NCBI RefSeq assembly: GCF_018811945.1
Contig: NZ_JACRVU010000002.1
Location: 1-64,000, forward strand
DNA length: 64,000 nucleotides
Source: Gluconobacter sp. P1C6_b
Lineage (GTDB): Bacteria; Pseudomonadota; Alphaproteobacteria; Acetobacterales; Acetobacteraceae
Reading direction: 5' to 3'
The notes beneath the pieces are model-generated. The model did no database searches, was not told the origin of the DNA, and worked only from the letters and a program-made list of their open reading frames with translations. The position numbers and the translations under genes are program-made. This document shows, piece by piece, positions 36,726-54,259 of the stretch (its first letter is position 1; every line of letters begins with the position of its first letter).

Positions 36726-36857
36726 TCAGAAACGGCGAAAAAACCCTTTCCGGAGCATCTTTCTCTCAGGAACATCCTCTGGCCCTCTTGCAATGTCCGG
36801 AAAACCCCGTCATAAGCCCCTCCGTCGATCAGGTTCAGCGCAAAAGCAGAGCCGTAC

Positions 36858-36950
<93 letters not shown>

Positions 36951-37172
36951 AAATCAAAAATTCCAAGATTTTCAGACGGTTATTTGATTTATCGAAATCC
37001 ATCCCACCTTGGGTTCCATCTTAAAAAATACGTCATCGCGAAGCGCCCGGACGCGATATACGTCGTCCTATAAATTTCCCGATGCGATCCGCTGACTAAA
37101 ATCCTGTCTTTCTCCAGAGGCCCAACGGAAGGCACTTATACAGATCCGGATTTTCCGCGGGTCAGTCGCTCA

Positions 37173-37538
37173 TTGCTGGATATTGCCAAGTCCATCCAGC
37201 GCGATATGCCGCGTGATATCGGCGCAAAATGGTCCCGTGTTTATTTCGAAAGCCCAAATTTCCCGGACAGAAAAATAGATGAAATCATAGAGAGGCTGAC
37301 ACTACGACAGCCCTATTCAAAGATCGGAAACCCGGACTTTTGGGCACAGACAGATGCCGTCATGGAATTGCTGTTCGCCCGGGCATCCTGCTGGTCTGGC
37401 GCGTTGAAACTGGAGGACCTTCTGCCGCAGCTGACATCAGGCCGGATGATCCAGGTTCATGACGAATATCGACAGACAGGTCTGCCCCTCAACGTGATTG
37501 CAGAGCACGGTCCCTTTTATAAAAGACCGATCCGGTGA
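37173..37538 (+). CDS. Unrecognised ORF, possibly a gene remnant
   Basis: A 121-codon frame with only a TTG start at 37173; protein-like sequence continues upstream to a TAA at 37071 without a good start, which suggests a decayed gene. Composition is balanced and helical (RKIDEIIERLTLRQPYS, VMELLFARAS). I recognise no family. After its stop the neighbouring frame (37501-37611) reads SGELRRLARALRDLGW, reminiscent of the C-terminus of VapE/primase-type mobile-element proteins, as if a frameshift separated them. No promoter or Shine-Dalgarno is evident. Confidence 0.35.
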   Translation: MLDIAKSIQRDMPRDIGAKWSRVYFESPNFPDRKIDEIIERLTLRQPYSKIGNPDFWAQTDAVMELLFARASCWSGALKLEDLLPQLTSGRMIQVHDEYRQTGLPLNVIAEHGPFYKRPIR

Positions 37539-37845
37539 GCTGCGCCGTCTTGCTCGCGCTTTGAGGGATCTTGGCTGGACGCAGCATCGCACGGCGCAGG
37601 CCCGGCGCTGAATAGTGCCCCTGATTTTCCACCAAAAGCCCCAATGGCATCACAGGTGAAGCCATCTCGTAAAGCACAACGACTTCTCCGGTGTCTTTCT
37701 TTGCGCAGCCGTCCTCTTCTTGGCCATCTCCCTCAGTGCAACCATCGTGCTCTGGCCGCAAGTCCTGAGCCCGGGAGGCACACATGTTTACAGGCCATGG
37801 GGCATTTCGTAACAAAAAGCGTCACCACATAAGGTTCTAAAGCGG
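37539..37845 (+). other. Gap with coding remnants before the helicase-PLD gene
   Basis: No intact gene is seen. Plus-strand 37501-37611 stays open with primase-like residues and ends at TGA. Plus-strand 37654-37812 reads a membrane-like peptide without a start codon: a hydrophobic stretch AAVLFLAISLSATIVLW, then a short polar tail to TAA. Its pattern loosely recalls Pycsar-type membrane effectors, but this is weak. The stretch probably holds debris of earlier insertions. Confidence 0.35.
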
Positions 37846-40800
37846 ATGTCGTCGAAGCCAAGCCATCATTCGGTCCTTTCGTACTGGCATTCCGCTCTTC
37901 TTGATGACGCCCAGATGAAGATCTCCTTCAGCCGGGATAATCTGGTCGCCCTTGACGAAGATGGCTTTGAAAAAGGTCACCTGCCGCCTGAAAAAAACCA
38001 GGCGCTGAGAAAGATGCACCCTGCCTTCCGTGAGCTGACTCCGGACGATTCCATTATCGCGATGGCCGGTATTCGCATTCTTCTCGGACAGGTCAGTCAT
38101 TCCACCGAGCATTCGAAGCAGCCTGCCCTTTTCTGTATGGCCATGCTCGTCAACGTCAGTCCGGAAGGGGCCATCCAGCCGCTCAAGGATGCCCCACCCT
38201 GGATAAACCGGGAGCTTCTCGAACCGTCCGATGGTGAAGTCCTGATTGGTGATTTGGCCACCATGGACAAGTGGCTTCAGCTCAATCCGTTTGAGGGAGG
38301 CAGTCTCGGCAAGACCCTGGAATGGGCGGAAAAGCTTTGGAACGCCGTGACCGGGGAAGACGGATTACCCGATGGCTATGAACTCTGGGAGCGCGTGGCT
38401 CTTCAGCCTGCAGAGTCCAGCATCGGGATGATTGCGACCCTCCATCAGCGGCGGTTTTACGATGCCGTTCTCGCTGACAGTGCTCTCGTAACACCCCTGC
38501 TTGAACGTTATGTCGACGGCGGCCCTGAACCGGCTGTTGTAGATGAGAAGCAGAGATGGGCAGCCGCTGGACAGGTCAGGGGAACGATGACCTCCGCCTA
38601 TGGAATGTCACCCAGCCAGTCCGAAGCCATGGCGGCGTTCTGCTCGGTGAAGGATGGTGACATCCTTGCTGTCAACGGACCTCCAGGCACGGGCAAGACC
38701 ACACTTCTGCAGGGTATCATCGCGACGGAGCTGGTGACGCGTGCCCTCGAGGGTGGCGACCCGGCTGTGATCGTCGGGACCTCGACCAATAACCAGGCTG
38801 TCACCAACATCATTGATGCCATGAAAAAAGCCATGGCTTCCAAGGATAGCCGGCCATGGGCGAGAAGATGGATTGAAGGTGCCGATGCGCTGGGTCTGTA
38901 TTTCCCTTCCGGAGAGAAAGGAAAGGAGGCTCTGAAAGCCGGCTACCTTGTCGCGTCTCCAGGAAGAGGCCTGGGCACGATGGAGTGGAAGGGCTTCCCC
39001 GAACGGGAACGGGATACGGTCGATGCCTGGGCGTCCCGTGATGCTTGGATCAACGGTTACTACGGTTCTTTCTATCCGGGTGTCACTCCGCCAATCCGTA
39101 AGGAGCACCTCTCAGGCCACGGTCCCCAGGGGCCGCGTCATGATATCAGCCTTGTTGAAGATGGCATCGCGAAAATCCGTGCGCGGATGAAGGTCCTTGT
39201 CGAAGCAGGGCGGGTCTGTGTGGAAGAGGCCCGAAAGCTACATCAGCTATATGTGTCCTCGGGGTATGGGACATATCCTGAAATCACACAGACCATCGCC
39301 CAGCGGGAAGCCCTTCTTCAGGAACGCAGGCCCAGGGAAGAGGCTCTCAAATTCGACCTCAAGGAAAAAGAGGCTGCCGCAGCCGTCCTGCACGCCAGGG
39401 TCGATGACGAGAACCGGAAGACCCGGAATCTCCTGAAGCAGTGCGATGATGCCGTGCATACTGCCGAGCAGAAAGTCGAGCAGGTGGGAGCACATGCCGT
39501 CGCGCTCATCGCAGCATTGCCAGAGGGGGGTTTCTTTTCGAGCCTGATAAGTGGACGTAGCTGGGCGAATGTTGAGAAGCTTGTCGCCGAGGGGGGGCAG
39601 GGAAGTTTCTTTCGGTCGCTCATGCAGGCTCAGGTGAAATCCAAACCCGAATGGATGGATGCCATTAATGAGATGACGGCATCAGCCGAGAGCGCGCTTG
39701 CAGCAGCCAGAAAATCCCGGGAAGAGACGCATCAGGCTCGGAATGCCCTGGTCCAGAAGCTGGAACGTGAGGCGGCTGCCGCCGAAATGGTGAGTAAGAC
39801 GGCCCGTGGCGAGTACGACCACTATGTTGGAGGCTCCTATATTCTGGCTGGTCGCGAACTTGAAAAACTCCTCATCCTCAAGCGCCAGATACTCTGGCAA
39901 CTTCAGGATGGCTGCGCGGCCATTGAAAAGGTTCTGGCACCGTCCGACTGGGTCGGGATGTTCGACATGCCGGAAGAAAAGCTTCCCTGGCGCCAGAACA
40001 ACTGGACAGGCAGACTGGATGTCATCGAGGATTTCCTGGACCGGACGATACGCTACGCCCTGTTCCAGTATGCTCTGCGCTACTGGGAGGGGCGGTGGGT
40101 TCTTGAAGTGCAGGCTTTGCAGGATGCGCTCGAGAAGAACGACAACAAGGCCTATCCGTTCAAGGTTGGCGGCAGAGCCATGGAGGCCATGTATCGTCGA
40201 TGGGCGATGCTGACACCACTCTTCATCGTGACCGCAGCCAGCCTTCCGAAGTTCCCCAAATGCACGCTGAAGGAAAAGGGCAAGTTCGTCGAACGCTTCA
40301 TGACAGGCTTCTTCGACCTGCTCATTGTTGACGAGGCCGGACAGATTGCCCCCTACCAGATGGTGCCGGCCATGGCCTTCTCGAAGAAAGCCGTTGTGGT
40401 CGGGGACGTCTTCCAGATTGAGCCGGTTGTCACCAGTTCCTATGCAACGGATACTGGAAACGCCCGAAAGGCCGGTGTCCAGGAATACTTCTGGGATGAC
40501 GACGGACCGGTTGATCCCCGCGTCGTCACGGCCGCACCGGGAAACAATAACCTCATGGGCTCCGTGATGCGCGTGGTCCAGACAGGCACCAGCCACTCCT
40601 CACCGGACAGCCCAGTTCCCGGCATCTTCCTGACCGAGCACCGCCGGTGTCGACGGGACATCATCGAGATCTGCAACGAACTTGTCTATAATGGCCGTCT
40701 GAAACCCATGACTGCAGAACCGGACAAGGTGCCACCGCTGCCGCCTCTGGCCTGGGCCAATGTCAACGGGGTATCGGAGCGTCTGGGGCGCAGTCAGCGC

Positions 40801-41805
40801 AATCCCCGTGAGGCAGAGGCCATCGCGAGGTGGATTGTCAGTAAAGCGGATGAATGGAAGGGCTTCTACGACAAGCCGGTGAACGAGATTGTCGCGGTGA
40901 TTACTCCCTATGGACCGCAGAGAGACGCCATCCGGCGGGCTCTGCGCAGGTTCAGCAAAGACAATCCTGACAAAAACATCTCGAAAATCAAGGTCGGCAC
41001 GGTCAATGCCATGCAGGGCGCTGAACGGGATATCATCATCTTCTCGCCGACATGTGACCGCAAGGCGAGCACGGGTTTCCTGGATGGCAAGCGCAGTCTT
41101 CTCAACGTCGCCATCTCACGAGCCGTCCATTCGTTCGTCGTCATTGGTACGATGGAAATCTTCGAGCGCAACTCTGCGTCGGCCCTGGGAATTCTGGGAA
41201 GGGCTCTGTTCTCCAAGGGCTATGAACTTGGGGATGTGACAGGCAACTGGGCGGCGGACACGTCTCTCATTCTGCGAGGCGAGAGGCTCTCGTCCGTAAA
41301 CGACCACCACGCGCAACTGGACAAAGCCCTTGCGGACCTGAAAGACGGCGAGGAAATTGTCATTGTCTCCCCCTTTCTGTCCCTGTCCGGCGTAAACGCA
41401 CCTGAACTCCAGGACAGCATCCGCGAGGCCGTTGGCAGAGGGGCCGTGGTGAACATCGTGACGCGCGCTCCCAACGCTCCCGGTTACTCCAACGGAACAT
41501 CACCTGCGTGCAGAAAGGCACTGCAGGAAGCGGGAGCAAGGCTGCACGATATCAAGCTTCTGCATTCGAAGACGCTGATGACGCAGAATTTTATTGCCGA
41601 GGGGTCATTCAACTGGCTGAGCGTCATGCGCGACAAGCCTGAGGGCGCCAACCTGGATACGTCATGGGTGCTGACCGGGGAGGATGCCCATATAGCTGCC
41701 CGAGAAGCCATTGATGAGCTGAACGTTCTTCTGAAAGAGAACAGACCCCCGTCCGAAGTGGGGCATGGAATAATGGCGGCCTTCGCCAGTCAGGGCAAAG
41801 GCTGA
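37846..41805 (+). CDS. SF1 (UPF1-like) helicase fused to PLD nuclease; Mokosh type II-like
   Basis: A 1319-aa protein combining a DNA2/NAM7/UPF1-type superfamily 1 helicase with a C-terminal phospholipase-D domain. Helicase motifs in order: Walker A GPPGTGKTT (residues 278-286), Walker B VDEAG (828-832), VVGDVFQIEP (Asp854), EHRRCRRD (about 931-938), TVNAMQGAERD (about 1052-1062) and ISRA with Arg1092. A large insert at about 450-720 separates motifs I and II and contains charged coiled coil. The PLD part (about 1130-1300) shows HSK at 1240-1242 and GSFNW with Asn1256, a single HxK set. COG1112 helicase plus PLD in one chain is the architecture of type II Mokosh (MkoC) antiphage proteins. It stands alone after remnants near tRNA-Ser. 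Another role in nucleic-acid repair cannot be excluded. Confidence 0.8.
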   Translation: MSSKPSHHSVLSYWHSALLDDAQMKISFSRDNLVALDEDGFEKGHLPPEKNQALRKMHPAFRELTPDDSIIAMAGIRILLGQVSHSTEHSKQPALFCMAMLVNVSPEGAIQPLKDAPPWINRELLEPSDGEVLIGDLATMDKWLQLNPFEGGSLGKTLEWAEKLWNAVTGEDGLPDGYELWERVALQPAESSIGMIATLHQRRFYDAVLADSALVTPLLERYVDGGPEPAVVDEKQRWAAAGQVRGTMTSAYGMSPSQSEAMAAFCSVKDGDILAVNGPPGTGKTTLLQGIIATELVTRALEGGDPAVIVGTSTNNQAVTNIIDAMKKAMASKDSRPWARRWIEGADALGLYFPSGEKGKEALKAGYLVASPGRGLGTMEWKGFPERERDTVDAWASRDAWINGYYGSFYPGVTPPIRKEHLSGHGPQGPRHDISLVEDGIAKIRARMKVLVEAGRVCVEEARKLHQLYVSSGYGTYPEITQTIAQREALLQERRPREEALKFDLKEKEAAAAVLHARVDDENRKTRNLLKQCDDAVHTAEQKVEQVGAHAVALIAALPEGGFFSSLISGRSWANVEKLVAEGGQGSFFRSLMQAQVKSKPEWMDAINEMTASAESALAAARKSREETHQARNALVQKLEREAAAAEMVSKTARGEYDHYVGGSYILAGRELEKLLILKRQILWQLQDGCAAIEKVLAPSDWVGMFDMPEEKLPWRQNNWTGRLDVIEDFLDRTIRYALFQYALRYWEGRWVLEVQALQDALEKNDNKAYPFKVGGRAMEAMYRRWAMLTPLFIVTAASLPKFPKCTLKEKGKFVERFMTGFFDLLIVDEAGQIAPYQMVPAMAFSKKAVVVGDVFQIEPVVTSSYATDTGNARKAGVQEYFWDDDGPVDPRVVTAAPGNNNLMGSVMRVVQTGTSHSSPDSPVPGIFLTEHRRCRRDIIEICNELVYNGRLKPMTAEPDKVPPLPPLAWANVNGVSERLGRSQRNPREAEAIARWIVSKADEWKGFYDKPVNEIVAVITPYGPQRDAIRRALRRFSKDNPDKNISKIKVGTVNAMQGAERDIIIFSPTCDRKASTGFLDGKRSLLNVAISRAVHSFVVIGTMEIFERNSASALGILGRALFSKGYELGDVTGNWAADTSLILRGERLSSVNDHHAQLDKALADLKDGEEIVIVSPFLSLSGVNAPELQDSIREAVGRGAVVNIVTRAPNAPGYSNGTSPACRKALQEAGARLHDIKLLHSKTLMTQNFIAEGSFNWLSVMRDKPEGANLDTSWVLTGEDAHIAAREAIDELNVLLKENRPPSEVGHGIMAAFASQGKG

Positions 41806-42116
41806 CAGCTCTGCCCGGAGTAAGACCGGCAGTCATGATGCCGTTTTTCGATGATGAAGTTCGGCATCATTCAGGCTTGTGTTCGGCAGGCGCTCGTTCA
41901 CGAATAAAGGTGGTCGTGGAAAAGAAACTCTGATCGTATCCACAGTTTTCTGCGGCACGTATTTGAAGTCACGTGAGACTGCCAACCATTTCTTGGTAGG
42001 GGGAAAACAGAATGTCCGCTATCCGTAATCGAACGTAAAATAACAGACGTTCCTACTCGTCTAAACTGTGTGTCGAACGATATTAATGCCTTCGTCTGGC
42101 ATGACGGTAAAAGCGA
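41806..42116. other. Intergenic region after the helicase-PLD gene
   Basis: No gene is visible. Arms ATGATGCCG (41835-41843) and CGGCATCAT (41862-41870) form a 9-bp stem with an 18-nt loop, 30 bp after the helicase stop and without a following T-run; it may act as a terminator. The rest is AT-richer sequence with no recognised motif. Confidence 0.4.
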
Positions 42117-42842
42117 TCAATCGGCTTCACTGGTAACCTTTGCGAGTTCCGATATGCGTTGCGCTTTCCAGCGTTGAAGCAGTCGGGAGCGAGGCTCACC
42201 TATCTTCTCATCCAGAATTTCTACCGCGTGTATCCGGTCCGTACGGAAATGACGAAAGCCCTGCCTCAGCTCGCACCAGGCGATCAACATGCACGTGGTG
42301 TCCGAATAACCGAGAACGACCGGCCATACCGTGCGCTCGGTGAACTCACCCTGTTGATCGCGATAATGCAGGCGCAACTTCGTCCCTGTGCGGATTGCGG
42401 CTCGAAGATTCGCCGTATCAGCCATCCGTTGTGATGCATCCAGAGGCAGTTTCGCTGCTGTGCTCGGAGTGTTGATCAGCGGCTGTAAGCGCCCGGGTAC
42501 GGTCACAGCGACTTTGGCGAGAACGTCCTGTGCTGCACGTGCCAGCATTTTATCACCATGAGCAGCCACCCACTGCGCACCCAGTACGATTGCCTCAAGC
42601 TCCACCGGGAGCAGTGCGAGCGGTGGCATGTCATATTCGGACCCCAGAACGTAGCCAACGCCGGCTTCGCCTGAAATGGGTACGCGCTGCCCCATCAGAT
42701 GCGCGATGTCGCGGTATATCGTACGGACGGAGACCTCCAGTTCGTCGGCCAGCATCCTCGCCGTGACGGGGCGAGACGACCGGCGCAGAATCTGGATGAT
42801 CTGAAAAAGGCGATCGGTGCTGCGCAAAGGTTTCGCAATCAT
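42117..42842 (-). CDS. HTH-WYL transcriptional regulator (YafY type)
   Basis: A 241-aa DNA-binding protein. The N-terminal helix-turn-helix (about residues 8-60, RLFQIIQILRRSSRPVTARM) resembles DeoR/HTH_11 domains, and ISGEAGVGYVLG follows. A WYL-type sensor domain (about 135-225, including LRAAIRTGTKLRLHYRD) probably binds a ligand. It diverges from the VOC gene. A perfect palindrome covers its own start codon, suggesting it represses itself and its neighbour. Confidence 0.85.
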   Translation of the reverse strand: MIAKPLRSTDRLFQIIQILRRSSRPVTARMLADELEVSVRTIYRDIAHLMGQRVPISGEAGVGYVLGSEYDMPPLALLPVELEAIVLGAQWVAAHGDKMLARAAQDVLAKVAVTVPGRLQPLINTPSTAAKLPLDASQRMADTANLRAAIRTGTKLRLHYRDQQGEFTERTVWPVVLGYSDTTCMLIAWCELRQGFRHFRTDRIHAVEILDEKIGEPRSRLLQRWKAQRISELAKVTSEAD

Positions 42843-42868
42843 GCTGACAGGATGCTGTCAGCATGATT
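42837..42868. promoter_or_regulatory. Perfect 14-bp palindrome between WYL regulator and VOC gene
   Basis: AATCATGCTGACAG (42837-42850) and CTGTCAGCATGATT (42855-42868) are exact reverse complements with a GATG spacer. The left arm contains the regulator's start codon (42840-42842), and the VOC gene starts 43 bp to the right. The likely role is an operator for the WYL regulator; a hairpin masking regulator translation is an alternative. Confidence 0.75.
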
Positions 42869-42910
42869 GTGCCAGAAGGCGGGGAACACAACCTGCGCAG
42901 GAACTTACCG

Positions 42911-43309
42911 ATGAAATTTACCTCCATCCGCCTGATTGCCGCCGACATCACTACGATGGTAGCCTTTTACGAACTGGTGACCGGTCAGTCTGCCGAATGG
43001 CTTGCACCCCAGTTTGCCGAAATCGTAACCCTTGGAGCGACACTTGCGATCGGTGGTGCTGAGACGGTAGCGCTGTTCATGGAAGGGAGTGCCGAACCAG
43101 GTGCAAATCGCACAGCCCTCCTGGAATTCAAGGTCGATGACGTGGATTCCGAGTTCACGCGTCTGAAAGGGAAGGTGGATGTTGTGATCGCACCCAGGCT
43201 GCTGCCCTGGGGTAACCGCACGGCCCAGTTCCGCGATCCCGAGGGCACGATCATCAGCCTGTTCACGCCGGTAACTGAAGCCGCCCGCGCCCGTTTCGGG
43301 AGCCGTTGA
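42911..43309 (+). CDS. VOC-superfamily protein (glyoxalase/dioxygenase fold)
   Basis: A 132-aa vicinal-oxygen-chelate protein. It opens MKFTSIRLIAADITTMVAFY, typical of the first beta-alpha-beta unit, and ends with WGNRTAQFRDPEGTIISLF, the second. Such single-chain proteins dimerise and may act as glyoxalases, dioxygenases or drug-binding proteins; the substrate is unknown. The ATG at 42911 has an AGGAA ribosome-binding site and fits the family; an upstream start inside the palindrome is rejected. Divergent from its probable WYL regulator. Confidence 0.82.
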   Translation: MKFTSIRLIAADITTMVAFYELVTGQSAEWLAPQFAEIVTLGATLAIGGAETVALFMEGSAEPGANRTALLEFKVDDVDSEFTRLKGKVDVVIAPRLLPWGNRTAQFRDPEGTIISLFTPVTEAARARFGSR

Positions 43310-43822
43310 CAAAGCACGGCCCGGCAGATGCGTAACTCTGTGTAGCAGTAAACCACCGGGTACTTGCTGGTGCCGGACTACGGATCGTGTTTGTATCAGG
43401 TAACTGACGTCTGCTTGCCGGAAGCCTCAGGGTGAAGAAAGATGTCTGACAAGAAGGCGACTGCCGCCTGTCTGCTCAATTCTTAAAGCTGACAGGTAGC
43501 TATGGGGGCTAGGCGGTTGGTTCTGAATGACAATTTTCCGTTCTGGGCAATCTTTTACCGAGCAGGGAGCGGGTCATATTGAAGCAGAAAACGCAACCAG
43601 AAGCATCCTATCAGGGAAGACAGGGCAGAGCCGGCGAAAGTGCCCATCTTGTCTGGGGTCATAAGGTAGAGTGTTCTAACAATCCCTTGTTTCTAGGTGT
43701 TTTTCTGTGATTCTATTCCTTGTGTCGTGATAAGGGGATGGTTGCATGAAACAGTCTGGTTTCTCTGCGTTCAAACGCGGGCACACCCAGAATGGGCAAG
43801 CGCTTGTCGACAACGATTGCCC
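43310..43822. other. Gene-poor stretch between the VOC gene and the ankyrin gene
   Basis: No intact gene is seen over about 500 bp. It contains one membrane-protein-like remnant on the minus strand (listed separately) and otherwise short frames with frequent stops, consistent with decayed accessory DNA. Confidence 0.45.
43555..43690 (-). pseudogene. Short membrane-protein remnant, perhaps C-terminus of NhaA
   Basis: About 42 minus-strand codons end at TAA (43557-43555). They read VRTLYLMTPDKMGTFAGSAL and then SSLIGCFWLRFLL. The pattern of a small residue-rich GS turn followed by a hydrophobic helix ending in LR recalls the last helix of NhaA Na+/H+ antiporters. An in-frame TAG upstream and no plausible start make it a fragment. 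The family assignment is tentative. Confidence 0.3.
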
Positions 43823-44336
43823 ATGCAGAAGAAACGCGTTGTGGCAGTTATTGCCGCTCTTACCTGTCTCGCTGGTTATGGGAAACTGACGGCCTCTACG
43901 CTGGAGAATAAACCCATGCCCCCTGGTGACCAGACGGTCTCCCCGGGCAGCAGTCAGCCCATGCTCGGTGCCGTCATGAATTCAGAAATCGATAAAGTCA
44001 GACGCCTTGCCGAACGATATCAGGGACTGGATGAACGTGATACAGGCGACAAGTCAACGCCGATGATAGCGGCTTCAGACACGGATCAATGGCCGGTCGT
44101 GGAGATCCTGATCGACCATGGCGCTGATATCTGGGCACATGACAAGTTTGACATTACGACTGCTCAACGTACGGCTCACCAGCCGTATCCTGCGTGGCTC
44201 TCCTGAGGATGCAGCCCGACTGCGGGTGATCGAAAAACTCAGGGCACGAGGGTACCCCTTTCCTCCGCCCTCCCGTGCCCAGATCCTGGCCCTCGACAAG
44301 GCGGGCAAATGGCCACCGCCAGGAGCGAAACGCTGA
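43823..44336 (+). pseudogene. Secreted ankyrin-repeat protein gene with frameshift
   Basis: The frame from ATG 43823 encodes a signal peptide (VVAVIAALTCLAGYG) and an ankyrin-like unit (TPMIAASDTDQW, VVEILIDHGADIWAHD), then stops at 44206. The continuation lies in another frame, from about 44160 to the TGA at 44336: LTSRILRGSPEDAARLRVIE and PPSRAQILALDKAGKWPPPG. One indel near 44160-44200 would restore a protein of about 170 aa. This is either a real mutation or a sequencing error. Ankyrin proteins of this kind usually bind other proteins; no partner is apparent. Confidence 0.7.
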
Positions 44337-44427
44337 GGCAAACAATGCAGCCGTCCCTTACGACAGACGCCCGATTGTCTTCTTCTCAGCCATCTGTCTC
44401 GCCGCAACTGTCATGTCCTAGCTATGA

Positions 44428-44456
44428 GGCCTGACCCTGGCGGCGCGTGTCAGGCC
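44428..44456. other. Hairpin between ankyrin gene and DUF1543 gene
   Basis: GGCCTGAC (44428-44435) and GTCAGGCC (44449-44456) form an 8-bp stem with a 13-nt loop in the convergent gap. It could serve as a bidirectional terminator, although no T-run follows. Confidence 0.4.
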
Positions 44457-44539
44457 GCAAACAGTACTTATGTCCGAGACGGTTATTGTCTCACTTTCAT
44501 GCTTACCCTTGAGGCTACCACTGAAACCACTGTGTTATT

Positions 44540-45055
44540 TCAAATTCGTTGATATCCTTGCCAGGCAGCAATAAGTGGTTTTCCGTCTTCGCTCGGTGTG
44601 AGATGAATATGCAGACCCCCGAACTGTTCAAGCGGGACGCAGTCATCTACTTCCATAAAATTGTCACGATGCCGGTGCGTGCGGCCCCGCAACAGGATCT
44701 GTCTGGCTCGGGCTTTGGCGTCATCAGCTGAGGCCGCCACAAAAAACGTGAACTCATGCTCTTCTTTCAGGGCACCGGGTTCGTAACCGCCCATGTTGAC
44801 GAAATACAGACGCAGATCCGATGAAGGCGGTTCCGGATGCAGGGAAATCCGATGGCCATCGGCCCATTCGACAATACCATAAGCATCGATGTGCAGTGAC
44901 TCCCGAAGGCCGAACCAGCGCATGGCTAGTGCTTCGTAAACGTCTTCCGGATGCACCGCGACCGCAAACTGGACATCATGGACCTCGATATTCGCCCCCG
45001 GGGCGGAGCCACCAAGATAAAAAATGAAAAGCTGTTTTTGGTTCTGATCTGTCAT
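44540..45055 (-). CDS. DUF1543 domain protein
   Basis: A 171-aa cytosolic protein. It opens with the family's LFIFYLGGSAPGANIEVHDV and includes the DVYEALAMRWFG segment; the C-terminal half (about 80-165, LRLYFVNMGGYEPGAL) looks like a second copy of the same fold. The function of DUF1543 proteins is unknown to me. It has no operon partner, with the ankyrin pseudogene convergent and the LLM gene upstream in the same direction 178 bp away. Confidence 0.8.
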   Translation of the reverse strand: MTDQNQKQLFIFYLGGSAPGANIEVHDVQFAVAVHPEDVYEALAMRWFGLRESLHIDAYGIVEWADGHRISLHPEPPSSDLRLYFVNMGGYEPGALKEEHEFTFFVAASADDAKARARQILLRGRTHRHRDNFMEVDDCVPLEQFGGLHIHLTPSEDGKPLIAAWQGYQRI

Positions 45056-45233
45056 CGTGTTTCCATCATATCTTCTCCATCCGCCTGCACCCGATTTTCA
45101 GCCTGCATTCCCAAAGTAAGGAACGACACGCCGATTATATTACCCGCTATGAGCAATCCGGACTGATGGGATCAGGTCCCGTCACAGTAACAAAAAATGC
45201 CTTTAGAGCTGCGGACGGGGGCCAGCCATAATC

Positions 45234-46211
45234 TCAGTCATCCATCAGATGACGGGCAACCCCGCTGAGGGTCTTCTGCCTTTCTGCCTGAGAGAACAGT
45301 GGTGTACCGATCAGCAGTTCATCAGGTCTGTGCTGCTCCACGAAAGCCGAGATGTTTTGTGCAACATCCTTTTCTGTCCCCACGAACGTGTAACGCAGCG
45401 TATTGTCAAGCAGACGTTGTTCCTGACTGTTCCATGACACTCGCCGGGGGGCCGGAAAAGTCGTTGGCCGCCCCTGACGCAGGGCAATGAAGTGCTGCTG
45501 CAGGGAGGTGGCGGCCTGCTGCGCTTCAGTATCCGTTTCCCCAATCACTGCGTTGATGCTTAGCATGACATACGGTTTTTGCAGCCGCCCGGAAGGTTCG
45601 AAGCGCTCCCGGTAAAGAGCCACGGCCTCTTCCATTAGGTCAGGGGCAAAATGACTGGCGAATGCGAACGGCAGTCCCATGATAGCAGCCAGATGGGCGG
45701 AGAACAGGGAAGACCCCAGCAGCCATACCGGCACAGTCAATCCAGCGCCCGGTACAGCAAAGACGATCTGTCCCGGTTGCGCCTTTTCGAAATAATGCAG
45801 CAACTCGACAACATCCTGCGGAAAACGCTCGGCGGAGGTTGGATCACGACGCAGTGCGCGCATGGTCGCCTGATCGGAGCCGGGGGCACGTCCAAGTCCG
45901 AGATCAATTCGGCCGGGATAGAGGGATTCCAGTGTTCCGAACGCCTCGGCGACAGCGAGCGGGGCATGGTTCGGCAGCATAATTCCCCCTGCGCCCACCC
46001 GAATGGTTTTCGTAGCCCCTGCGACATAGCCGATCACGACTGCAGTTGCGGCGGAGGCAATACCCGGCATCGCATGATGTTCGGCCAGCCAGAAACGCCG
46101 AAAACCCAGACTTTCTGCATGCCGCGCAAGATCGGCACTGCGATGAAGCGCCTCCGCTGCCGAGGTGCCCTCGGTGATGAATGCAAGATCGAGAACCGAA
46201 AGTGGGATCAT
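45234..46211 (-). CDS. LLM-class flavin-dependent oxidoreductase (YhbW-like)
   Basis: A 325-aa luciferase-like TIM-barrel protein expected to use FMNH2 and oxygen. It opens [12 protein letters not shown], followed by [35 protein letters not shown] and [13 protein letters not shown], which are typical of the MsnO8/YhbW group. The substrate is unknown. It is divergent from the FucP-like symporter, separated by about 290 AT-rich bp. Confidence 0.88.
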
Positions 46212-46500
46212 ATGGAAAGCCCTGTCACCAGTTTCTCATAGAGGTGGGGTGGATTGTGGACCGTGCCAGTCAGAAACAGGAAAACCTTCTGAAAGCACCT
46301 CTTTGCAAGCCTGACCTCCATAAAATGTGACTTCCAGAAGAGATCAAAGGGACAAAACTCACAATAAATAGTCCTTTCAAAACATTTTAAATGTGATATT
46401 TATCATAAAGATAACGGAAACTGATGCTGGAAAGTCGCCTCTCGTACAGGCGGTCCAGCCTTTTATCTTTAGCGGTCAACAAGTTCTTGCGAGGCAATCC

Positions 46501-47835
46501 GTGGCCAAATCCGACCCCATCGTCCAGCTCCCGGACGGCTTTTATCTCAACCGTACACCGCTGCTTGCTTTCGGCCTGTTGTGCTGTCTGTTCTCACTAT
46601 GGGGCTGTGCCATGAGCCTCAATGACGTGCTGATCGGCCAGTTCCGCAAAGCCTTCATGCTGTCGGATTTTCAGTCCGCACTTGTGCAGTTCTCTTTTTA
46701 CATCAGCTATTTCGTGCTGGGCATTCCGGCCGGCATGATCATCAAGCGCTTCAGCTATAAATGGTCGATCCAGCTGGGCCTGCTGCTGTATCTCATTGGC
46801 TGCTGCCTGTTTTTCCCTGCCGCCCATTTCGCCACATACCAGATCTTCTTCGTGGCTCTTTTTGTTGTTGCAGCCGGGCTGGTCTTTATTGAAACCGCTG
46901 CGGATACGTACTGCACCCTGCTCGGGCCGCCGGGACGTGGAACGCACCGTCTGAACTTTGCCAGCGCCTTTCAGCCAATCGGCGCCATTCTGGGGTCCAG
47001 CATGGGAGCCTACCTGATTTTCAGGGACGGCGATCTTTCACGCGAGCAGCTCTCTGGCATGCCAGCCGCGCAGGCCTGGCAGCATCAGCTCGGCATGATC
47101 CATGCCACTCTTGAGCCCTATGTCTACATCCTCGGCGTTCTGCTGGTCGTTATGGTCGCCATCGGCCTGACGCGTTATCCAGCCTGTAAAGGCCGCGATC
47201 AGCAGCGCAGTCACGAACTCGATACGACCGGCGCTCTCAAACGGCTTTTCGCCAACAGACGCTTCGTCCTCGGGATCCTGACGCAGTTCCTGTATGTCGG
47301 CGCACAGGTCGGCGTCTGGAGCTTCATCATCCGCCTGTCCATGCGACTGGGGCACATCAACGAGCGGCAGGCTTCCGTTTACCTGATTGCCTCATTCTGT
47401 GCGTTCTTTGTGGGCAAGCTCGTGGCCAATTTCTTCATGCGGCACGCACGCCCGGCGCGGGTTCTGTTCGTTTACAGCCTGCTCTGCATCGTCGCGCTGG
47501 GTTATGCCGTCATGGTCCACGATTTTACGGCTGTGTACGCCGCCATTTTCGTCAGTGGACTGCTCGGTCCCTGTTGGCCAACAATTTACGGACTGACCGT
47601 CGATGAGCTCGGCCATGACCGCGCTTACGGCGGGTCAATCCTGGTCATGAGTATCAGCGGCGGCGGAATTCTCCCCCTCCTGCAAGGCTATATCTCGGAT
47701 GCGACCGGCGGAAACATGCAGCTTGCCTACATCGTACCGATGGCATGCTTTATCGTGATTGCCATGTTCGCGGCATACTGCATGAAAACCACGGATGAAC
47801 CGGCAGAGCAGATCGTCTTTGACGCCACGCTCTAG
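46501..47835 (+). CDS. fucP: FucP-type sugar:H+ symporter (MFS)
   Basis: A 444-aa protein with about twelve hydrophobic helices, similar to L-fucose permease: FGLLCCLFSLWGCAMSLNDV in helix 1, then FSFYISYFVLGIPAG in helix 2 and ETAADTYCTLLGP further on. The GTG at 46501 has a GAGG ribosome-binding site 6 nt ahead and gives the usual length; another in-frame GTG at 46393 would add 36 residues unlike the family. The sugar is uncertain (fucose, galactose or glucose are all known for the family). It ends convergently with the LysR gene. Confidence 0.85.
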   Translation: MAKSDPIVQLPDGFYLNRTPLLAFGLLCCLFSLWGCAMSLNDVLIGQFRKAFMLSDFQSALVQFSFYISYFVLGIPAGMIIKRFSYKWSIQLGLLLYLIGCCLFFPAAHFATYQIFFVALFVVAAGLVFIETAADTYCTLLGPPGRGTHRLNFASAFQPIGAILGSSMGAYLIFRDGDLSREQLSGMPAAQAWQHQLGMIHATLEPYVYILGVLLVVMVAIGLTRYPACKGRDQQRSHELDTTGALKRLFANRRFVLGILTQFLYVGAQVGVWSFIIRLSMRLGHINERQASVYLIASFCAFFVGKLVANFFMRHARPARVLFVYSLLCIVALGYAVMVHDFTAVYAAIFVSGLLGPCWPTIYGLTVDELGHDRAYGGSILVMSISGGGILPLLQGYISDATGGNMQLAYIVPMACFIVIAMFAAYCMKTTDEPAEQIVFDATL

Positions 47836-47950
47836 GCTCAAAACCCATTGATTTGATTGCGGAAATCTGTTTCAGGCCTCTCTGAGGAGGCAGGAGATGA
47901 GCGCCCTGTTTTGGCTGACAGACGAGTAAATGGTGCGAGCTGAGGTGATT

Positions 47951-48940
47951 TCAGCTGCGAGCCGGACGTCCAGCCAGACGCCCGGTATTCTGCACTGGTC
48001 GCAGTGTTTTCTTCAGTTCGTCGAGAACCTTCATGGTAGGGCGCGACTGATTTCGGGATTTGAGCATCAGAATTCCGTATGAACTGATCGCGATGTTCAC
48101 ATCGGACGAGACGATCTGGATCTGCCTGTATTTCGCCTGCTGATTGGCCACTGCGGCTGAGAGAATTGTCAGCGCATCCGTTTTTTCCAGATAGGCGAGG
48201 GTCATCAGCAGGGAGTCGCTTCCGATGATATCTTTCGGAAGGGACAGCTTCCTGTCCTGAAAGATGCTTTCGAGTTTGCTGCGCGATTTTCCCCCCTTTC
48301 GTTGCAGAACCCATGGAAAAGGCGCCATATCCTCCAGTCGGACCGGGGCTGCCTTCCGGAAGAGAGGGTGCTCCTGACGCGCTGCGATGACCATGGGTTC
48401 CTCGCCGATCGGGATGTAATGGCACGCCATGCTCCGCGCATCTTCTGGCGCCCGACCGATCATGATGTCGATGTCGCCATTCATCAGGTCATGAAAAAGC
48501 CCCACACTCGATCCGGTACGGATTTCGAGCGATATATCCGGGTTATCACGCTGGATGTTGAGGACGGCCGTCGTCAGGAGATCGACCACGGGCCCGTCGA
48601 TGGCACCGATTGATACTGTGCCCGCCCCACCCGAAAGAAGCGCATTGAACTCGTCTCGTGTGCGGTCAAGTTCATCGAGCAGATTGTTGGCATGCCGGGT
48701 CAGCACACTGCCATAGGCATTGATAACGAGACGGCGTCCTTCCCGCTGGAAGAGCGGGATACCAATCACATCTTCGAGATCCCCCAGCAGCCGCGACGCG
48801 GCGGGCTGCGCCAGACCGAGACTTTCAGCAGCGCTCTGGAGCGTGTTGTGGCGTGAAAGGGCCTGCAATAGCTGCAGATGCCTGAACTTCAGCCGGATAT
48901 CGACGAACCATGAGGGAGGTAAAAGCCGCTTCTCTTGCAT
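47951..48940 (-). CDS. LysR-family regulator of the tetronate operon
   Basis: A 329-aa LysR-type regulator. The winged HTH spans about residues 14-75 (FRHLQLLQALSRHNTLQSAA, QPAASRLLGDLE), and a periplasmic-binding-like effector domain lies at about 100-310. It is divergent from ltnD with an inverted repeat in the shared 144-bp region, so it most likely controls the threonate operon in response to an acid-sugar intermediate. The exact inducer is an inference. Confidence 0.88.
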   Translation of the reverse strand: MQEKRLLPPSWFVDIRLKFRHLQLLQALSRHNTLQSAAESLGLAQPAASRLLGDLEDVIGIPLFQREGRRLVINAYGSVLTRHANNLLDELDRTRDEFNALLSGGAGTVSIGAIDGPVVDLLTTAVLNIQRDNPDISLEIRTGSSVGLFHDLMNGDIDIMIGRAPEDARSMACHYIPIGEEPMVIAARQEHPLFRKAAPVRLEDMAPFPWVLQRKGGKSRSKLESIFQDRKLSLPKDIIGSDSLLMTLAYLEKTDALTILSAAVANQQAKYRQIQIVSSDVNIAISSYGILMLKSRNQSRPTMKVLDELKKTLRPVQNTGRLAGRPARS

Positions 48941-48975
48941 GGGCTCAGCATAACATCTGGAGCATGAAACATAAC

Positions 48976-49003
48976 ATTTTATGCATTAGACCTATCATAA
49001 AAT
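48976..49003. promoter_or_regulatory. Inverted repeat in the LysR/ltnD divergent region
   Basis: ATTTTATG (48976-48983) and CATAAAAT (48996-49003) are perfect 8-bp arms with a 12-bp spacer, containing the T-N11-A layout expected of LysR operators. It lies 36 bp from the regulator start and 82 bp from ltnD. Confidence 0.65.
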
Positions 49004-49084
49004 ATGTGAATTATTCCCCTCAATCACCTCTGCCCTGTGCAGCAGGTGCAGAAAGAACTTTAGCGCTTCAGGCGGGGAACGACG

Positions 49085-50005
49085 ATGCAGGGTAAGGATC
49101 AGACAGGTCAGATCGGTGTGATCGGCCTCGGGGCGATGGGTCTTGGTGTTGCGAAATCGTTGTTGCGTGCAGGCTTTCCCGTCGGCGCCTGCGATTTGCG
49201 CGCAGAGGCTCTGACCGCGTTTGAAACTGAAGGCGGCAAGGCGTACACGTCGCCTGCTGCCCTCGCAGAGTCCTGTGACATCCTGATCATTCAGGTTGTG
49301 AATGCGGAGCAGACAGAGCAGGTTCTCTTCGGCGAAGAGGGGGCAGTGGACACGCTGAAGCCCGGTTCTCTGGTCATTTCCTGCGCGACTGTGGCGCCAG
49401 CCTTCATCGAAGGGCTTGAGACGCGTCTGAGGGAGCACGACATCTGGCTGCTTGATGCGCCGATGTCCGGAGGCGCCGCCAAGGCGGCTTCCGGCGAGAT
49501 GACGCTGATGACCTCCGGCCCCGAAGAAGCCTATGCCCGTGCGGAAACGGTTCTGCCTGCCGTGGCTGGCAAGGTCTATCGGCTTGGAGCCAAAGTGGGT
49601 GTCGGCACCCGTGTAAAAATCGTCAACCAGCATCTGGCCGGCATTCATATCGCGGCAGCCGCCGAAGCCATGGCGCTGGGACTGCGGGAAGGTGCCGATC
49701 CTGCGACCCTGTTCGAAGTCATCACCAATAGCGCTGGCAATTCCTGGATGTTCGAAAACCGGGTGCCCCATATTCTTGCGGGGGATTACACGCCGCTGTC
49801 AGCGGTGGATATCTTCGTCAAGGACCTTGGCCTGGCGCTCGATACCGCCCGTCGGACGAAATTTCCCCTTCCTTTGGCGGCGACGGCCCATCAGATGTTT
49901 CTCAACGCCTCTGCCGCAGGCCATGGTCGGGAAGATGACTCGGCTGTCATCAAGATTTTCCCGGGGATTAAGCTTCCGTCTTCCGACAAGGGAGAGGGAG
50001 CATGA
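49085..50005 (+). CDS. ltnD: L-threonate dehydrogenase
   Basis: A 306-aa beta-hydroxyacid dehydrogenase that oxidises L-threonate at C2 to 2-oxo-tetronate with NAD+. The Rossmann motif GLGAMG is at residues 14-19; LDAPMSGGAAKA and the catalytic-Lys segment VKIVNQHLAGIHIAAAAEA are family hallmarks. It is the first gene of a five-gene operon and overlaps the kinase gene by 4 bp. Specificity is inferred from the otnK/otnC/otnI neighbours. Confidence 0.88.
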   Translation: MQGKDQTGQIGVIGLGAMGLGVAKSLLRAGFPVGACDLRAEALTAFETEGGKAYTSPAALAESCDILIIQVVNAEQTEQVLFGEEGAVDTLKPGSLVISCATVAPAFIEGLETRLREHDIWLLDAPMSGGAAKAASGEMTLMTSGPEEAYARAETVLPAVAGKVYRLGAKVGVGTRVKIVNQHLAGIHIAAAAEAMALGLREGADPATLFEVITNSAGNSWMFENRVPHILAGDYTPLSAVDIFVKDLGLALDTARRTKFPLPLAATAHQMFLNASAAGHGREDDSAVIKIFPGIKLPSSDKGEGA

Positions 50006-51291
50006 CCAGAGCCGGTGCGCTCATCGGCTGTATCGCCGATGATTTCACGGGCGCGACCGACATTGCCAGCACGCTGGTCCGTGCAGGCATGAAAACGGTG
50101 CAGACCATTGGCATTCCAGATGCGGATGATCCGATGATCGCCGATGCCGAAGCCATTGTCGTCGCCCTCAAGTCGCGCACAATTGCCGCCGGGGACGCGG
50201 TGGCGCAGTCACTGGCCGCTCTGGATTTCCTGCGGTCTGCCGGCTGCCAACAGATCGTTTTCAAATACTGCTCCACCTTCGATTCCACCGAAAAGGGCAA
50301 TATCGGTCCTGTTGCGGAGGCGCTGGCCAAGGCGCTCGGACAGGAGGTGACGATTGCCGCGCCCTCTTTTCCGGCCAACGGGCGCACAGTCTATAATGGC
50401 CATCTCTTCGTCGGGCATGCGCTGCTCAATGAAAGCGGGATGCAGAACCATCCGCTGACACCGATGAAGGATGCCAACCTCGTACGCGTGCTTCAGGCCC
50501 AGTCCACCGGAACTGTCGGGCTGATCGATCTTTCGACGGTCCTCAGGGGGGCGGAGCAGATCAGGGCAGGGATCGAGAAGGCGAAGGCCGGGGGAGCCAC
50601 CCTTCTTGTTGTCGATGCAATTTCCGAATCTGATCTTACAGTGATCGGACAGGCCTGCCGTGATCATGTCTTGATCACGGGCGGTTCGGGAATTGCCTTG
50701 GGACTGCCGGACAATTTCAGGGCAGGCACCGAACTTTCCGGTGCAGACGCCGCCGTTCTGCCTGCTGTCGCTGGACAGGATGTCGTTCTCGCCGGCAGCG
50801 GTTCGCTAAGGACGAATCTTCAGGTGGCACGCTGGATTGAAGCGGAGCGGCCTGCTTACCGGATTGATGTCATGAAGCTGGCTGCCGGTGCACCGGTTGT
50901 GGAAGAGGCGGTTGCCTTCTTCGACGCTCATGCCGATCAGACCGTTCTCATCTACGCGACCAGCCCGGCCGATGAACTCAGGCAGGTGCAGGCTGCGATA
51001 GGAGCCCAGAAGGCGGGGGAAATGGTCGAGCATGCTCTGGGCCGTATCGCACAGTCTTTGAAAAACCGGGGTGTCAGGCGTTTTGTCGTTGCCGGCGGAG
51101 AAACCTCAGGCGCCGTTGTTCAGGCGCTGGGTGTCAAGGGGCTGCGTATTGGTGCGCCGATTGCGCCGGGCGTTCCTGCAACCGTCTCAACGGGCAGCGT
51201 GCCGCTCGCACTTGCCCTGAAATCAGGCAATTTCGGTGAGGCCGACTTCTTTGAAAAAGCGCTGCTGGCATTGTCGGGAGGTCAGTCATGA
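50002..51291 (+). CDS. otnK: 3-oxo-tetronate 4-phosphate kinase (DUF1537)
   Basis: A 429-aa acid-sugar kinase that phosphorylates 3-oxo-tetronate with ATP. The N-terminal domain begins IGCIADDFTGATDIASTLV and includes FKYCSTFDSTEKGNIGPV; the C-terminal nucleotide-binding part shows VVAGGETSGAVVQALG. All three are diagnostic of DUF1537 kinases. It overlaps ltnD and otnC by 4 bp each, so translation is coupled across the three. Confidence 0.93.
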   Translation: MTRAGALIGCIADDFTGATDIASTLVRAGMKTVQTIGIPDADDPMIADAEAIVVALKSRTIAAGDAVAQSLAALDFLRSAGCQQIVFKYCSTFDSTEKGNIGPVAEALAKALGQEVTIAAPSFPANGRTVYNGHLFVGHALLNESGMQNHPLTPMKDANLVRVLQAQSTGTVGLIDLSTVLRGAEQIRAGIEKAKAGGATLLVVDAISESDLTVIGQACRDHVLITGGSGIALGLPDNFRAGTELSGADAAVLPAVAGQDVVLAGSGSLRTNLQVARWIEAERPAYRIDVMKLAAGAPVVEEAVAFFDAHADQTVLIYATSPADELRQVQAAIGAQKAGEMVEHALGRIAQSLKNRGVRRFVVAGGETSGAVVQALGVKGLRIGAPIAPGVPATVSTGSVPLALALKSGNFGEADFFEKALLALSGGQS

Positions 51292-51929
51292 CGGATGAAA
51301 GAGCATACCGTGAGGAAATCTGCGCGATCGGCCGGGATCTGTACGCGCGAGGGCATACGAGCGGAAGCGCGGGAAACATCAGCGCGCGTCTTTCTGACGG
51401 ATGGCTGATCACGCCAACGGATGTCTGTCTGGGGCGTCTCACACCCGACGGGATCGCCAAGGCCGATTTTGAAGGAAACTGGGTTTCCGGTCCGCGTCCG
51501 TCCAAAACGGTGACCCTGCATCGCAGGATCTACGAGCAGAGACCGGATTGCAACGGCATCATCCATACGCATTCCACCCATCTCGTCGCGCTGACGCTGG
51601 CGGGGGTGGATACCGAAAATGCCATCCTGCCCCCGATCACACCGTATCAGGTCATGAAGATCGGGCGTGTTCCGCTGATCCCTTATGAACGTCCGGGATC
51701 GCCGAAAGCGGCAGCGCGCGTGGCGGAACTGGCTCCCTCGGTCAACGGAGTCATGCTGGATCGTCTCGGACCGGTCGTCTGGGGGAGCAGTGTGACGCGT
51801 GCAAGTGATGCGCTTGCCGAACTCGAAGAGACGGCCCGCCTATGGCTGATGACCACACCCCGTCCCGCACCGCTGGATGATGCCGCACTGGCAGAGATCG
51901 CGGCCGTGTTCGGGGTGACATGGGACTGA
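51288..51929 (+). CDS. otnC: 3-oxo-tetronate 4-phosphate decarboxylase (class II aldolase fold)
   Basis: A 213-aa zinc enzyme that decarboxylates 3-oxo-tetronate 4-phosphate to dihydroxyacetone phosphate. SGSAGNISARL (about residues 25-36) and the metal-binding IIHTHSTHLVALTLAG (about 95-110, His-x-His) mark the aldolase II/AraD fold. Without the neighbours it could be read as fuculose-phosphate aldolase; the otnK-otnC coupling favours this assignment. Confidence 0.9.
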   Translation: MTDERAYREEICAIGRDLYARGHTSGSAGNISARLSDGWLITPTDVCLGRLTPDGIAKADFEGNWVSGPRPSKTVTLHRRIYEQRPDCNGIIHTHSTHLVALTLAGVDTENAILPPITPYQVMKIGRVPLIPYERPGSPKAAARVAELAPSVNGVMLDRLGPVVWGSSVTRASDALAELEETARLWLMTTPRPAPLDDAALAEIAAVFGVTWD

Positions 51930-51960
51930 TTTGGCCTTTTCGAAAGCAGGAGAAGTCCTG

Positions 51961-53349
51961 ATGACCCCCATGGTTCTTCTGGGCAGCGCCATTGCCGGCA
52001 TCGTGCTGATGCTGGTGCTGATCATCCGTTTCAAGCTTCATCCGATCCTGACGCTCCTTATCGTCAGCATGTTTGTCGCGCTTTTTGCCGGAATGCCTGC
52101 AGCCAGGATCGTTCCTGCGATCGAGGCAGGGATGGGCAAGACACTGGGCCATATCGCCATCATCATCGCCCTCGGGGCGATGATCGGAAAGATCGTGGAG
52201 ATTTCAGGTGGCGCCCAGGTTCTCGCGCGCGATCTTATCGCACGTTTCGGAGACCGCCGCGTCCCGCTTGCCCTGACGCTTGCAGGCTTCCTGATCGGCA
52301 TCCCGGTCTTTTTCGAGGTCGGCGTGATTATGGTCATGCCCTTGCTCTACGGCGTGTCGAACGTGACCCGGCGCTCCCTCATGATTTTCGCACTCCCGAT
52401 GTGTGTGGCCATGCTGACGGTGCATTCGTTCCTGCCGCCGCATCCCGGTCCGGCCGCTGCCGCCGCACAGATCGGCGCAAATATGGGGCGCATTCTGGCA
52501 TTCGGAGTGCCGATCACCCTTATGGTCTGTGGGGCAGGGGCTCTGATTGCACAGCGCATGACGCGCCGCGAGTTCATATATGCGCCCGACATCCAGGCAG
52601 CGGTCAGCGGATCTGAGGACGGAACGTTCAGTGCCCTGCCAGAAGCATCCGCCCATGCACTGCCTTCGGCTGAGCCGCCCGGATTCTGGCTGATTGTCGG
52701 GCTGATCCTGCTTCCGATCATCCTCATCATGTTTGGCACCATGCTGTCGATCTTTCTCCCGGCCTCCTCTTCCTACGCCGGAGCTGCCCACCTTGTCGGC
52801 TCACCAGTAACTGCGCTGCTGCTCGATACCCTCCTTGCCGGCTACACGCTGGGACTGCGACGGGGATGGAGCTTTGAACAGGTTTCGACGGTCATCGGGT
52901 CTGCGGTGCCCGGTGTTGCCCTGGTGATCCTGATCGCGGGTTGTGGAGGGGTGTTCGGGAACATTCTGGTGGAAAGCGGCATCGGCCACGTCATCTCCGA
53001 CATACTCCGTACGACCGGGCTGCCTGCACTCGCCCTGGCTTTTATCCTGAGCATGATCCTGCGCGCGGTGCAGGGATCGACGACAGTAGCGCTTGTGACG
53101 ACCGCAGGGATTCTCGGTCCCATGATCTCGGAGATGCATGCCTCCCCCAACCAGCTTGCCCTGCTCGCGCTTGCCATGGGGGGCGGGGGACTGTCGGTTT
53201 CCCACGTCAACGACGCAGGGTTCTGGATCTTCACGAAACTGTCCGGGATCGACGTTGCCGATGGCCTGCGCACCTGGACCGTTCTGACAACAACGCTCGG
53301 TGTTCTGGGGTTTCTGGCCACCTGCGTCCTGTGGCCTTTCGTCTCGTAA
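51961..53349 (+). CDS. GntP-family acid-sugar:H+ symporter
   Basis: A 462-aa inner-membrane transporter of the gluconate permease family with about twelve hydrophobic segments; FHSFLPPHPGP-like motif is present as VHSFLPPHPGPAAAA. The ATG at 51961 has an AGGAG ribosome-binding site; an upstream TTG at 51931 is rejected. It sits between otnC and otnI, so threonate or a related tetronate is the likely substrate rather than gluconate. This is inferred from position. Confidence 0.9.
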   Translation: MTPMVLLGSAIAGIVLMLVLIIRFKLHPILTLLIVSMFVALFAGMPAARIVPAIEAGMGKTLGHIAIIIALGAMIGKIVEISGGAQVLARDLIARFGDRRVPLALTLAGFLIGIPVFFEVGVIMVMPLLYGVSNVTRRSLMIFALPMCVAMLTVHSFLPPHPGPAAAAAQIGANMGRILAFGVPITLMVCGAGALIAQRMTRREFIYAPDIQAAVSGSEDGTFSALPEASAHALPSAEPPGFWLIVGLILLPIILIMFGTMLSIFLPASSSYAGAAHLVGSPVTALLLDTLLAGYTLGLRRGWSFEQVSTVIGSAVPGVALVILIAGCGGVFGNILVESGIGHVISDILRTTGLPALALAFILSMILRAVQGSTTVALVTTAGILGPMISEMHASPNQLALLALAMGGGGLSVSHVNDAGFWIFTKLSGIDVADGLRTWTVLTTTLGVLGFLATCVLWPFVS

Positions 53350-53374
53350 TTCATTGCAAGGGAAGTTTCTCGCC

Positions 53375-54172
53375 ATGCCTGCTTTTGCCGCAAACCTGAC
53401 CATGAACTACCCCGAGATTAAATTCCCCGAGCGTTTCGACGCTGCCGCGCGTGACGGCTTCAGGGGAGTTGAATTCCTGTTCCCTTACGCTTTCGAGAAA
53501 CAGGATCTGAGCGCGCGGGTGCGGGGAAACAATCTGCATGTCGCGCTGTTCAACGCTCCGCCAGGAGACTGGGATCGAGGGGAGCGTGGACTGGCGGCAC
53601 TCCCCGGTCGGGAGGAGGAGTTCCGCCGCACGATCGGGACGGCACTGGAATATTCCCAGGCTCTCGGGAACAGCCGCCTGCATGTCATGGCCGGTTTGCG
53701 CGATGCCGAAATTCCGCATGAACGGCAGATGGAAACCTATCTGCGGAATATCGAATACGCGGCCTCTCAGGCGCAATCCATCGGACTGACCATTGTTCTG
53801 GAAGCCATCAACACGCGCAACATGCCCGGCTATTTCCTGAATTATCAGGAAGAGACGAAAACAGTCTGTGATCTGCTCAGGGCGGATAACGTCAGAATCC
53901 AGTTTGACCTTTATCACGCGCAGATCATGCAGGGTGACCTCGCGGTTCGACTGGAAACCCTTTTTGGATCAATCGCTCACATTCAGGCGGCCAGCGTTCC
54001 GGACCGGCACGAGCCGGATGAGGGAGAGGTCAATTACCCCTATCTATTCGCTCTGCTGGACCGTCTTGGCTATCGTGGCTGGATTGGATGCGAATACAAC
54101 CCACGGGCTTCGACGTCCGAAGGCCTGGACTGGTTGCGTCCATGGCGGGGAGCTGCCGCAGTAACGCCCTAG
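53375..54172 (+). CDS. otnI: 2-oxo-tetronate isomerase
   Basis: A 265-aa TIM-barrel enzyme of the hydroxypyruvate-isomerase family that turns 2-oxo-tetronate into 3-oxo-tetronate. Metal/substrate residues are visible in VLEAINTRNMPGYFL (Glu), QFDLYHAQIMQGDL (Asp, His) and WIGCEYNP (Glu). The ATG at 53375 follows a GGAAG site 25 bp after gntP. With ltnD, otnK and otnC it completes the route from threonate to dihydroxyacetone phosphate. Confidence 0.9.
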   Translation: MPAFAANLTMNYPEIKFPERFDAAARDGFRGVEFLFPYAFEKQDLSARVRGNNLHVALFNAPPGDWDRGERGLAALPGREEEFRRTIGTALEYSQALGNSRLHVMAGLRDAEIPHERQMETYLRNIEYAASQAQSIGLTIVLEAINTRNMPGYFLNYQEETKTVCDLLRADNVRIQFDLYHAQIMQGDLAVRLETLFGSIAHIQAASVPDRHEPDEGEVNYPYLFALLDRLGYRGWIGCEYNPRASTSEGLDWLRPWRGAAAVTP

Positions 54173-54197
54173 GTCACTTCGGTAGAGCATCCGGTCC

Positions 54198-54232
54198 AGT
54201 GACTTGCGTGTCGCGGTACAGCGCAAGTCACT
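54198..54232. terminator. Long hairpin between otnI and the FUSC gene
   Basis: AGTGACTTGCG (54198-54208) pairs with CGCAAGTCACT (54222-54232); an inner TGT/ACA extends the stem past one bulged G. The site is between convergent genes but lacks a T-run on either side, so a bidirectional terminator is likely though unproven. Confidence 0.5.
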
Positions 54233-54259
54233 GAGATGTCCGAACATGATTTCGCTGTC

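Follow-up and report, generated by a model that had tools for sequence, protein, structure and literature searches.

Our analysis suggests that one gene in the 64,000-nucleotide window studied here (positions 1 to 64,000 of contig NZ_JACRVU010000002.1, Gluconobacter sp. P1C6_b) forms a complete anti-phage system. The gene, at 37846..41805 on the forward strand (+), very probably encodes MkoC, the sole protein of a type II Mokosh system, in a long form found in the Acetobacteraceae and with a helicase and a PLD domain that work as we propose below. Type II Mokosh, with its protein MkoC, was reportedly described by Millman and colleagues in 2022. We infer a defense function, an RNA substrate, dimerization and nuclease activity for the window protein.

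The reading frame is intact: it starts with ATG and continues for 1319 codons without an internal stop, and it lies exactly at the positions given in the original prediction, which was made before our analysis and from the letters alone. That prediction also saw the signature of MkoC in the fusion of a COG1112-like helicase to a PLD domain and proposed a search with Mokosh hidden Markov models. Among the PADLOC models, MkoC is indeed the top match (E=3.8e-270, 897.5 bits). It aligns end to end, with residues 7–1293 on profile positions 5–1133 of 1136, and a full-length match at this E value excludes chance. The next models, for MkoA, are far behind (E=1.1e-49 and 4.1e-32).

The helicase comes first in the chain. 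Pfam finds the two halves of this kind of helicase (AAA_12 and AAA_11; PF13087 and PF13086), and motif scan and alignment place motifs I (GPPGTGKT, residues 278–285) and Ia (TSTNNQAVTN, 312–321) at 38677..38808 (+). Motifs II to VI, also covered by PF13087/PF13086, lie at 40330..41124 (+) and include DEAGQ (829–833), VVGDVFQIEP (851–860), VGTVNAMQGAE (1050–1060) and NVAISRA (1087–1093). An alignment of 12 sequences is invariant, or almost so, at most of the motif residues, so the superfamily 1 (SF1) helicase motifs claimed originally are well founded. In the structure model, residues 1–1112 are predicted to form an SF1 helicase that resembles UPF1 and SMUBP2 and whose stalk helices are very long. 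The large coiled-coil insert noticed earlier is real and corresponds to model helices 437–472, 477–557 and 600–697 (together residues 437–697; 39154..39936, +), which sit between motifs Ia and II at the main site of the long-branch extension described below. In a phmmer search, the sequence match to UPF1, SMUBP2, Sen1 and Aquarius is confined to the C-terminal RecA domain, and these SF1 helicases, unlike the window protein, have no PLD domain.

At E≤1, Pfam names no PLD family in the window protein. The domain is found by profile and structure comparison: a C-terminal-domain profile of 41 sequences, searched against the PDB, matches Nuc (1byr, E=3.7e-7), mitochondrial cardiolipin hydrolase and NucT, with residues 1144–1306 (41275..41763, +) being the range aligned to Nuc. 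The structure model agrees with the PLD fold anticipated by the original prediction, since residues 1108–1319 are predicted to form a PLD domain resembling Nuc, NucT, BfiI and SauUSI. The anticipated active site is there as well, at 41563..41613 (+), with HSK at 1240–1242 (H1240 and K1242) and GSFN at 1253–1256; a second HSK at 89–91 falls outside the PLD domain. A detail beyond the earlier claim is that the Asp of the HKD motif (HxKxxxxD) is missing. Because Gln1247 takes its place, we class the domain among PLD folds of atypical motif rather than among the classical HKD enzymes. The Asp is found in none of the 8 long forms versus 52 of the 54 other PLD-bearing rows; in seven of the eight, the loop where it would sit is also shorter by one residue. 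All eight retain His, Lys and GSxN.

The window protein is like type II Mokosh in being a single protein with an SF1 COG1112-like helicase first and a C-terminal PLD domain. It differs by about 150 extra amino acids, the lost HKD Asp and a lower score on the MkoC model. With type I (MkoA and MkoB) it shares the kind of helicase, and MkoA models match its helicase part. According to PMC11672841, however, type I keeps helicase and PLD on separate genes and includes a kinase domain, whereas here helicase and PLD are fused. We rejected type I on this basis: the gene itself is the only PLD-profile match among the ORFs (open reading frames) of the window, and there is no separate MkoB among them. 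Nuc and NucT share the PLD fold and the single HxK motif per chain; unlike the window protein, they are free-standing, without a helicase, and retain the HKD Asp (H-K-IIVD for Nuc in our alignment). None of the open-access papers that we searched names Mokosh together with Acetobacter, or with Zucchini.

How might such a protein work? Four papers present Mokosh as a system of an RNA helicase and a PLD protein or domain (PMC11672841, PMC10013915, PMC11291487, PMC10952713), and one of them states that Mokosh degrades viral transcripts (PMC11291487); another paper lists the mechanism as unknown (PMC12926258). Under our proposal, the UPF1-like SF1 helicase would load onto a single strand of phage nucleic acid (probably RNA) and move along it. 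As each chain has only one HxK motif, the C-terminal PLD domains of two MkoC molecules would pair and then cut the same strand or a neighboring one.

Several points weigh against this proposal. Without the HKD Asp, nuclease activity appears less sure for the window protein than for other members of the family. That the substrate is RNA rather than DNA is a guess, by analogy to proteins of similar fold. The score on the MkoC model alone is not proof of membership either, as the window protein scores lower than two helicases without a PLD domain (957 bits for L083 from Tenacibaculum and 947 bits for L092), both of which stop at profile position 966. We assign the window protein to MkoC because its match covers the PLD part of the profile. 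Such PLD-less helicases are common: among the genome-contig loci used here, the best 80 of at least 458 confirmed ones, 29 have no ORF matching the PLD profile, although some of these are cut by contig ends. All six Tenacibaculum loci that we fetched (L083, L084, L085, L094, L095 and L100; 990–1021 amino acids) are without a PLD-profile match, as is the L092 locus. Two papers report type II Mokosh with a PLD effector from Tenacibaculum. Hence, calls of type II Mokosh that are based on the MkoC model may include proteins without a nuclease. The genomic neighborhood is a further point against our reading. Among the 18 ORFs in or next to the 17.3-kb insertion that carries the gene, no second defense system was found with PADLOC at E≤0.001, and the remaining insertion genes are metabolic. 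The insertion is not a defense island.

One could also argue that the protein is a relative of type II Mokosh whose PLD domain does not cut but binds nucleic acid or dimerizes, while the helicase alone, or an unlinked nuclease, blocks the phage. The absence of the Asp from all long forms and the shortened loop are what one would expect in this case, and TrmBL2/TrmB and FAM83B, which have the PLD fold and are not known as nucleases, appear among the PDB matches. Yet the rest of the active site is retained throughout the long forms, and comparison with the copy in Acetobacter pasteurianus shows purifying selection on the PLD part (dN/dS 0.144, with 0.192 for the insert and 0.126 overall); the gene is maintained as a working protein. 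Furthermore, tyrosyl-DNA phosphodiesterases do without this Asp and are active all the same. A domain that does not cut therefore seems unlikely to us. We are similarly doubtful about an extension of the Mokosh reading, in which the long branch is a functional type II variant: Asp loss and longer stalk helices would have altered the action or target of the PLD domain, and the variant would have spread on plasmids among acetic acid bacteria. Such a domain could, for example, process ends in the manner of the Asp-less tyrosyl-DNA phosphodiesterases, or bind without cutting. Having lost the HKD Asp in nature, the long forms lend themselves to asking whether cutting by the PLD domain is essential to Mokosh.

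A somewhat better, though still tentative, alternative is a DNA-directed helicase-nuclease that acts on phage DNA, similar to the PLD restriction enzyme SauUSI or to Dna2. SauUSI differs in its architecture, since its PLD domain is N-terminal (chain residues 2–182 in PDB 7clg) and that of the window protein is C-terminal. The helicase of SauUSI also belongs to another superfamily. Less probable than any of these is a housekeeping SF1 helicase without a role in defense. The lack of defense neighbors in the insertion and the many PLD-less relatives with similar MkoC scores would fit such a protein. However, the gene is missing from 25 of the 26 genomes of the genus, occurs on plasmids and within an insertion, and reaches only 82.7 bits on TIGR00376 (IGHMBP2-family helicase), far under the curated cut-off of 348.9. 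On this last result we rejected the housekeeping helicase.

The MkoC reading, as a one-gene system, also fits the surroundings of the relatives. In an all-against-all comparison of neighboring ORFs (at least 70 amino acids, within about 6 kb) from 60 PLD-bearing loci, the commonest family occurs at 5 of the 60, so there is no recurrent partner gene. The 486 bases upstream that are common to Acetobacter plasmids hold small ORFs, but three indels (5, 1 and 11 bases) distinguish the copies; hence no second gene is conserved there. The same indels led us to reject a divergent upstream partner, a hypothetical protein on the Acetobacter plasmids, because they break its frame in the window; Pfam and PADLOC gave no match for this candidate ORF. 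A remnant of a gene without a Pfam match lies upstream of mkoC at 37111–37663 and is partly present on the Acetobacter plasmids. A genome without mkoC (L133) has 84% identity to this stretch at the same site (L133 1725–2410), which argues that the DNA directly before mkoC is older than the gene or travels separately. In marine gammaproteobacterial relatives (L039, L046, L070, L071), two common ORFs of about 530 and 470 codons lie upstream of mkoC.

In an 88-row tree, the eight long forms (1317–1335 amino acids) are set apart by a branch with an SH-aLRT of 100, and all of them are from Acetobacteraceae. They represent about five distinct lineages, as L014/L015 and L016/L025 are near copies and L026/L109 are identical. 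The tree is of a quick kind, without bootstrap and with long end branches, and keeps 88 of 93 rows (five rows of less than 900 amino acids were omitted); where the long branch belongs relative to other MkoC proteins is less sure than its unity. At 1319 amino acids, the window protein exceeds the median of 50 shorter relatives (1166.5) by about 150, mostly in the stalk helices. On the MkoC model, two further long forms score 837 bits (L026) and 867 bits (G252), and four other PLD-bearing members, three from outside the family and one gammaproteobacterial, score above the window protein, at 1012–1500 bits. The original prediction had considered a new branch. The long, well-supported branch agrees with this, but it lies within a known family: the long form is a divergent, somewhat unusual branch of type II Mokosh and not a new system.

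Within the genus, a mkoC-like gene is found at E≤1e-60 in one of 26 genomes, the window's own; a helicase in G021 that matches less well (33% identity) is a different protein. Within the family, the MkoC model matches in 4 of 397 genomes at E≤1e-100, again including the window's own, and one of the four (G398) is without the PLD part. The protein of G321 is identical to that of Gluconacetobacter aggeris, which is among the 80 genome-contig loci (43%) together with Acetobacter pomorum (58%). The copy of A. okinawensis JCM 25146, also among these loci (L027 795–4768), reaches 94% in its best segment and is broken into several ORFs; a damaged gene and draft errors are not distinguishable here. 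A tblastn search of plasmids returned 725 records, and in 11 of them the match spans 80% or more of the protein: ten are Acetobacter records at 91.7–91.8%, and the eleventh, at 57.9%, is a plasmid of A. pasteurianus. None of six matching phage records reaches this coverage. Our study thus adds a mobile, plasmid-linked type II Mokosh gene to the acetic acid bacteria.

The mobility of the gene is also visible in the window. A 4.6-kb block (37360..41930, +) has 89.8% DNA identity to A. pasteurianus and A. oryzoeni plasmids, with unrelated flanks on both sides. DNA to the left of the gene is common to relatives up to 36947, the end of a tRNA-Ser (CGA) at 36858..36947 (+), which forms the left border of the insertion. 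We compared 12 stretches from relatives. In five (L123, L125, L126, L127, L128) the window sequence resumes at 54259–54260, about 25–27 bases past the tRNA, and in four (L124, L130, L131, L134) it resumes after other DNA of about 4.6, 9.0, 4.6 and 18 kb. In L133 there is no resumption within 20 kb, and L129 and L132 end at a contig end and are uninformative. Since relatives carry either no insert or different DNA there, the tRNA-Ser (CGA) is a hotspot for insertions in the genus, and the one in the window is 17.3 kb long (36948..54259). Its G+C content is 57.3%, compared with 62.4% and 60.3% for the sequence to its left and right, respectively. The region is a recently acquired, horizontally gained stretch of the chromosome. 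Of 17 tyrosine integrase matches (PF00589) in the genome none is in the window (serine recombinases were not searched for), the PF13358 transposase has no match genome-wide, and no direct repeat of the tRNA end of at least 16 bases was found at the right border.

Four Sigma-70-like promoter patterns occur on both strands of 36800–42300, none of them upstream of the mkoC-like gene. Downstream, a terminator-like hairpin followed by TTTTT (41827..41843, +) has near-identical counterparts on the plasmids of A. pasteurianus and A. oryzoeni; it is a pattern match only, with 7 such sites found versus 4.7 expected.

Near some relatives there are defense genes: 4 of 103 neighbor ORFs match a type I methyltransferase and 3 each match MADS mad2 and mad5 (E≤1e-15), counts that come from part of the loci and have no control comparison. 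In the insertion itself, PADLOC gives weak single matches for 43697–44206 (PDC-M72A, 0.00096) and for a luciferase-like monooxygenase at 45234–46211 (C3a156, 8.9e-7). The regulator at 42117–42842 (WYL/HTH) matches WYL models, at best with 5.7e-60, and WYL is listed by PADLOC as CRISPR-associated. Further to the right, 49085–54172 encodes in a row an NAD-binding hydroxyacid dehydrogenase, an SBD_N/NBD_C kinase, a class II aldolase, a GntP permease and a xylose-isomerase-like protein, and looks like a cluster for four-carbon sugar-acid catabolism. The WYL/HTH regulator is divergent from a glyoxalase-like gene (42117–43309), and about 1.1 kb within this pair has 81–82% identity to plasmids of Komagataeibacter medellinensis and K. 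xylinus.
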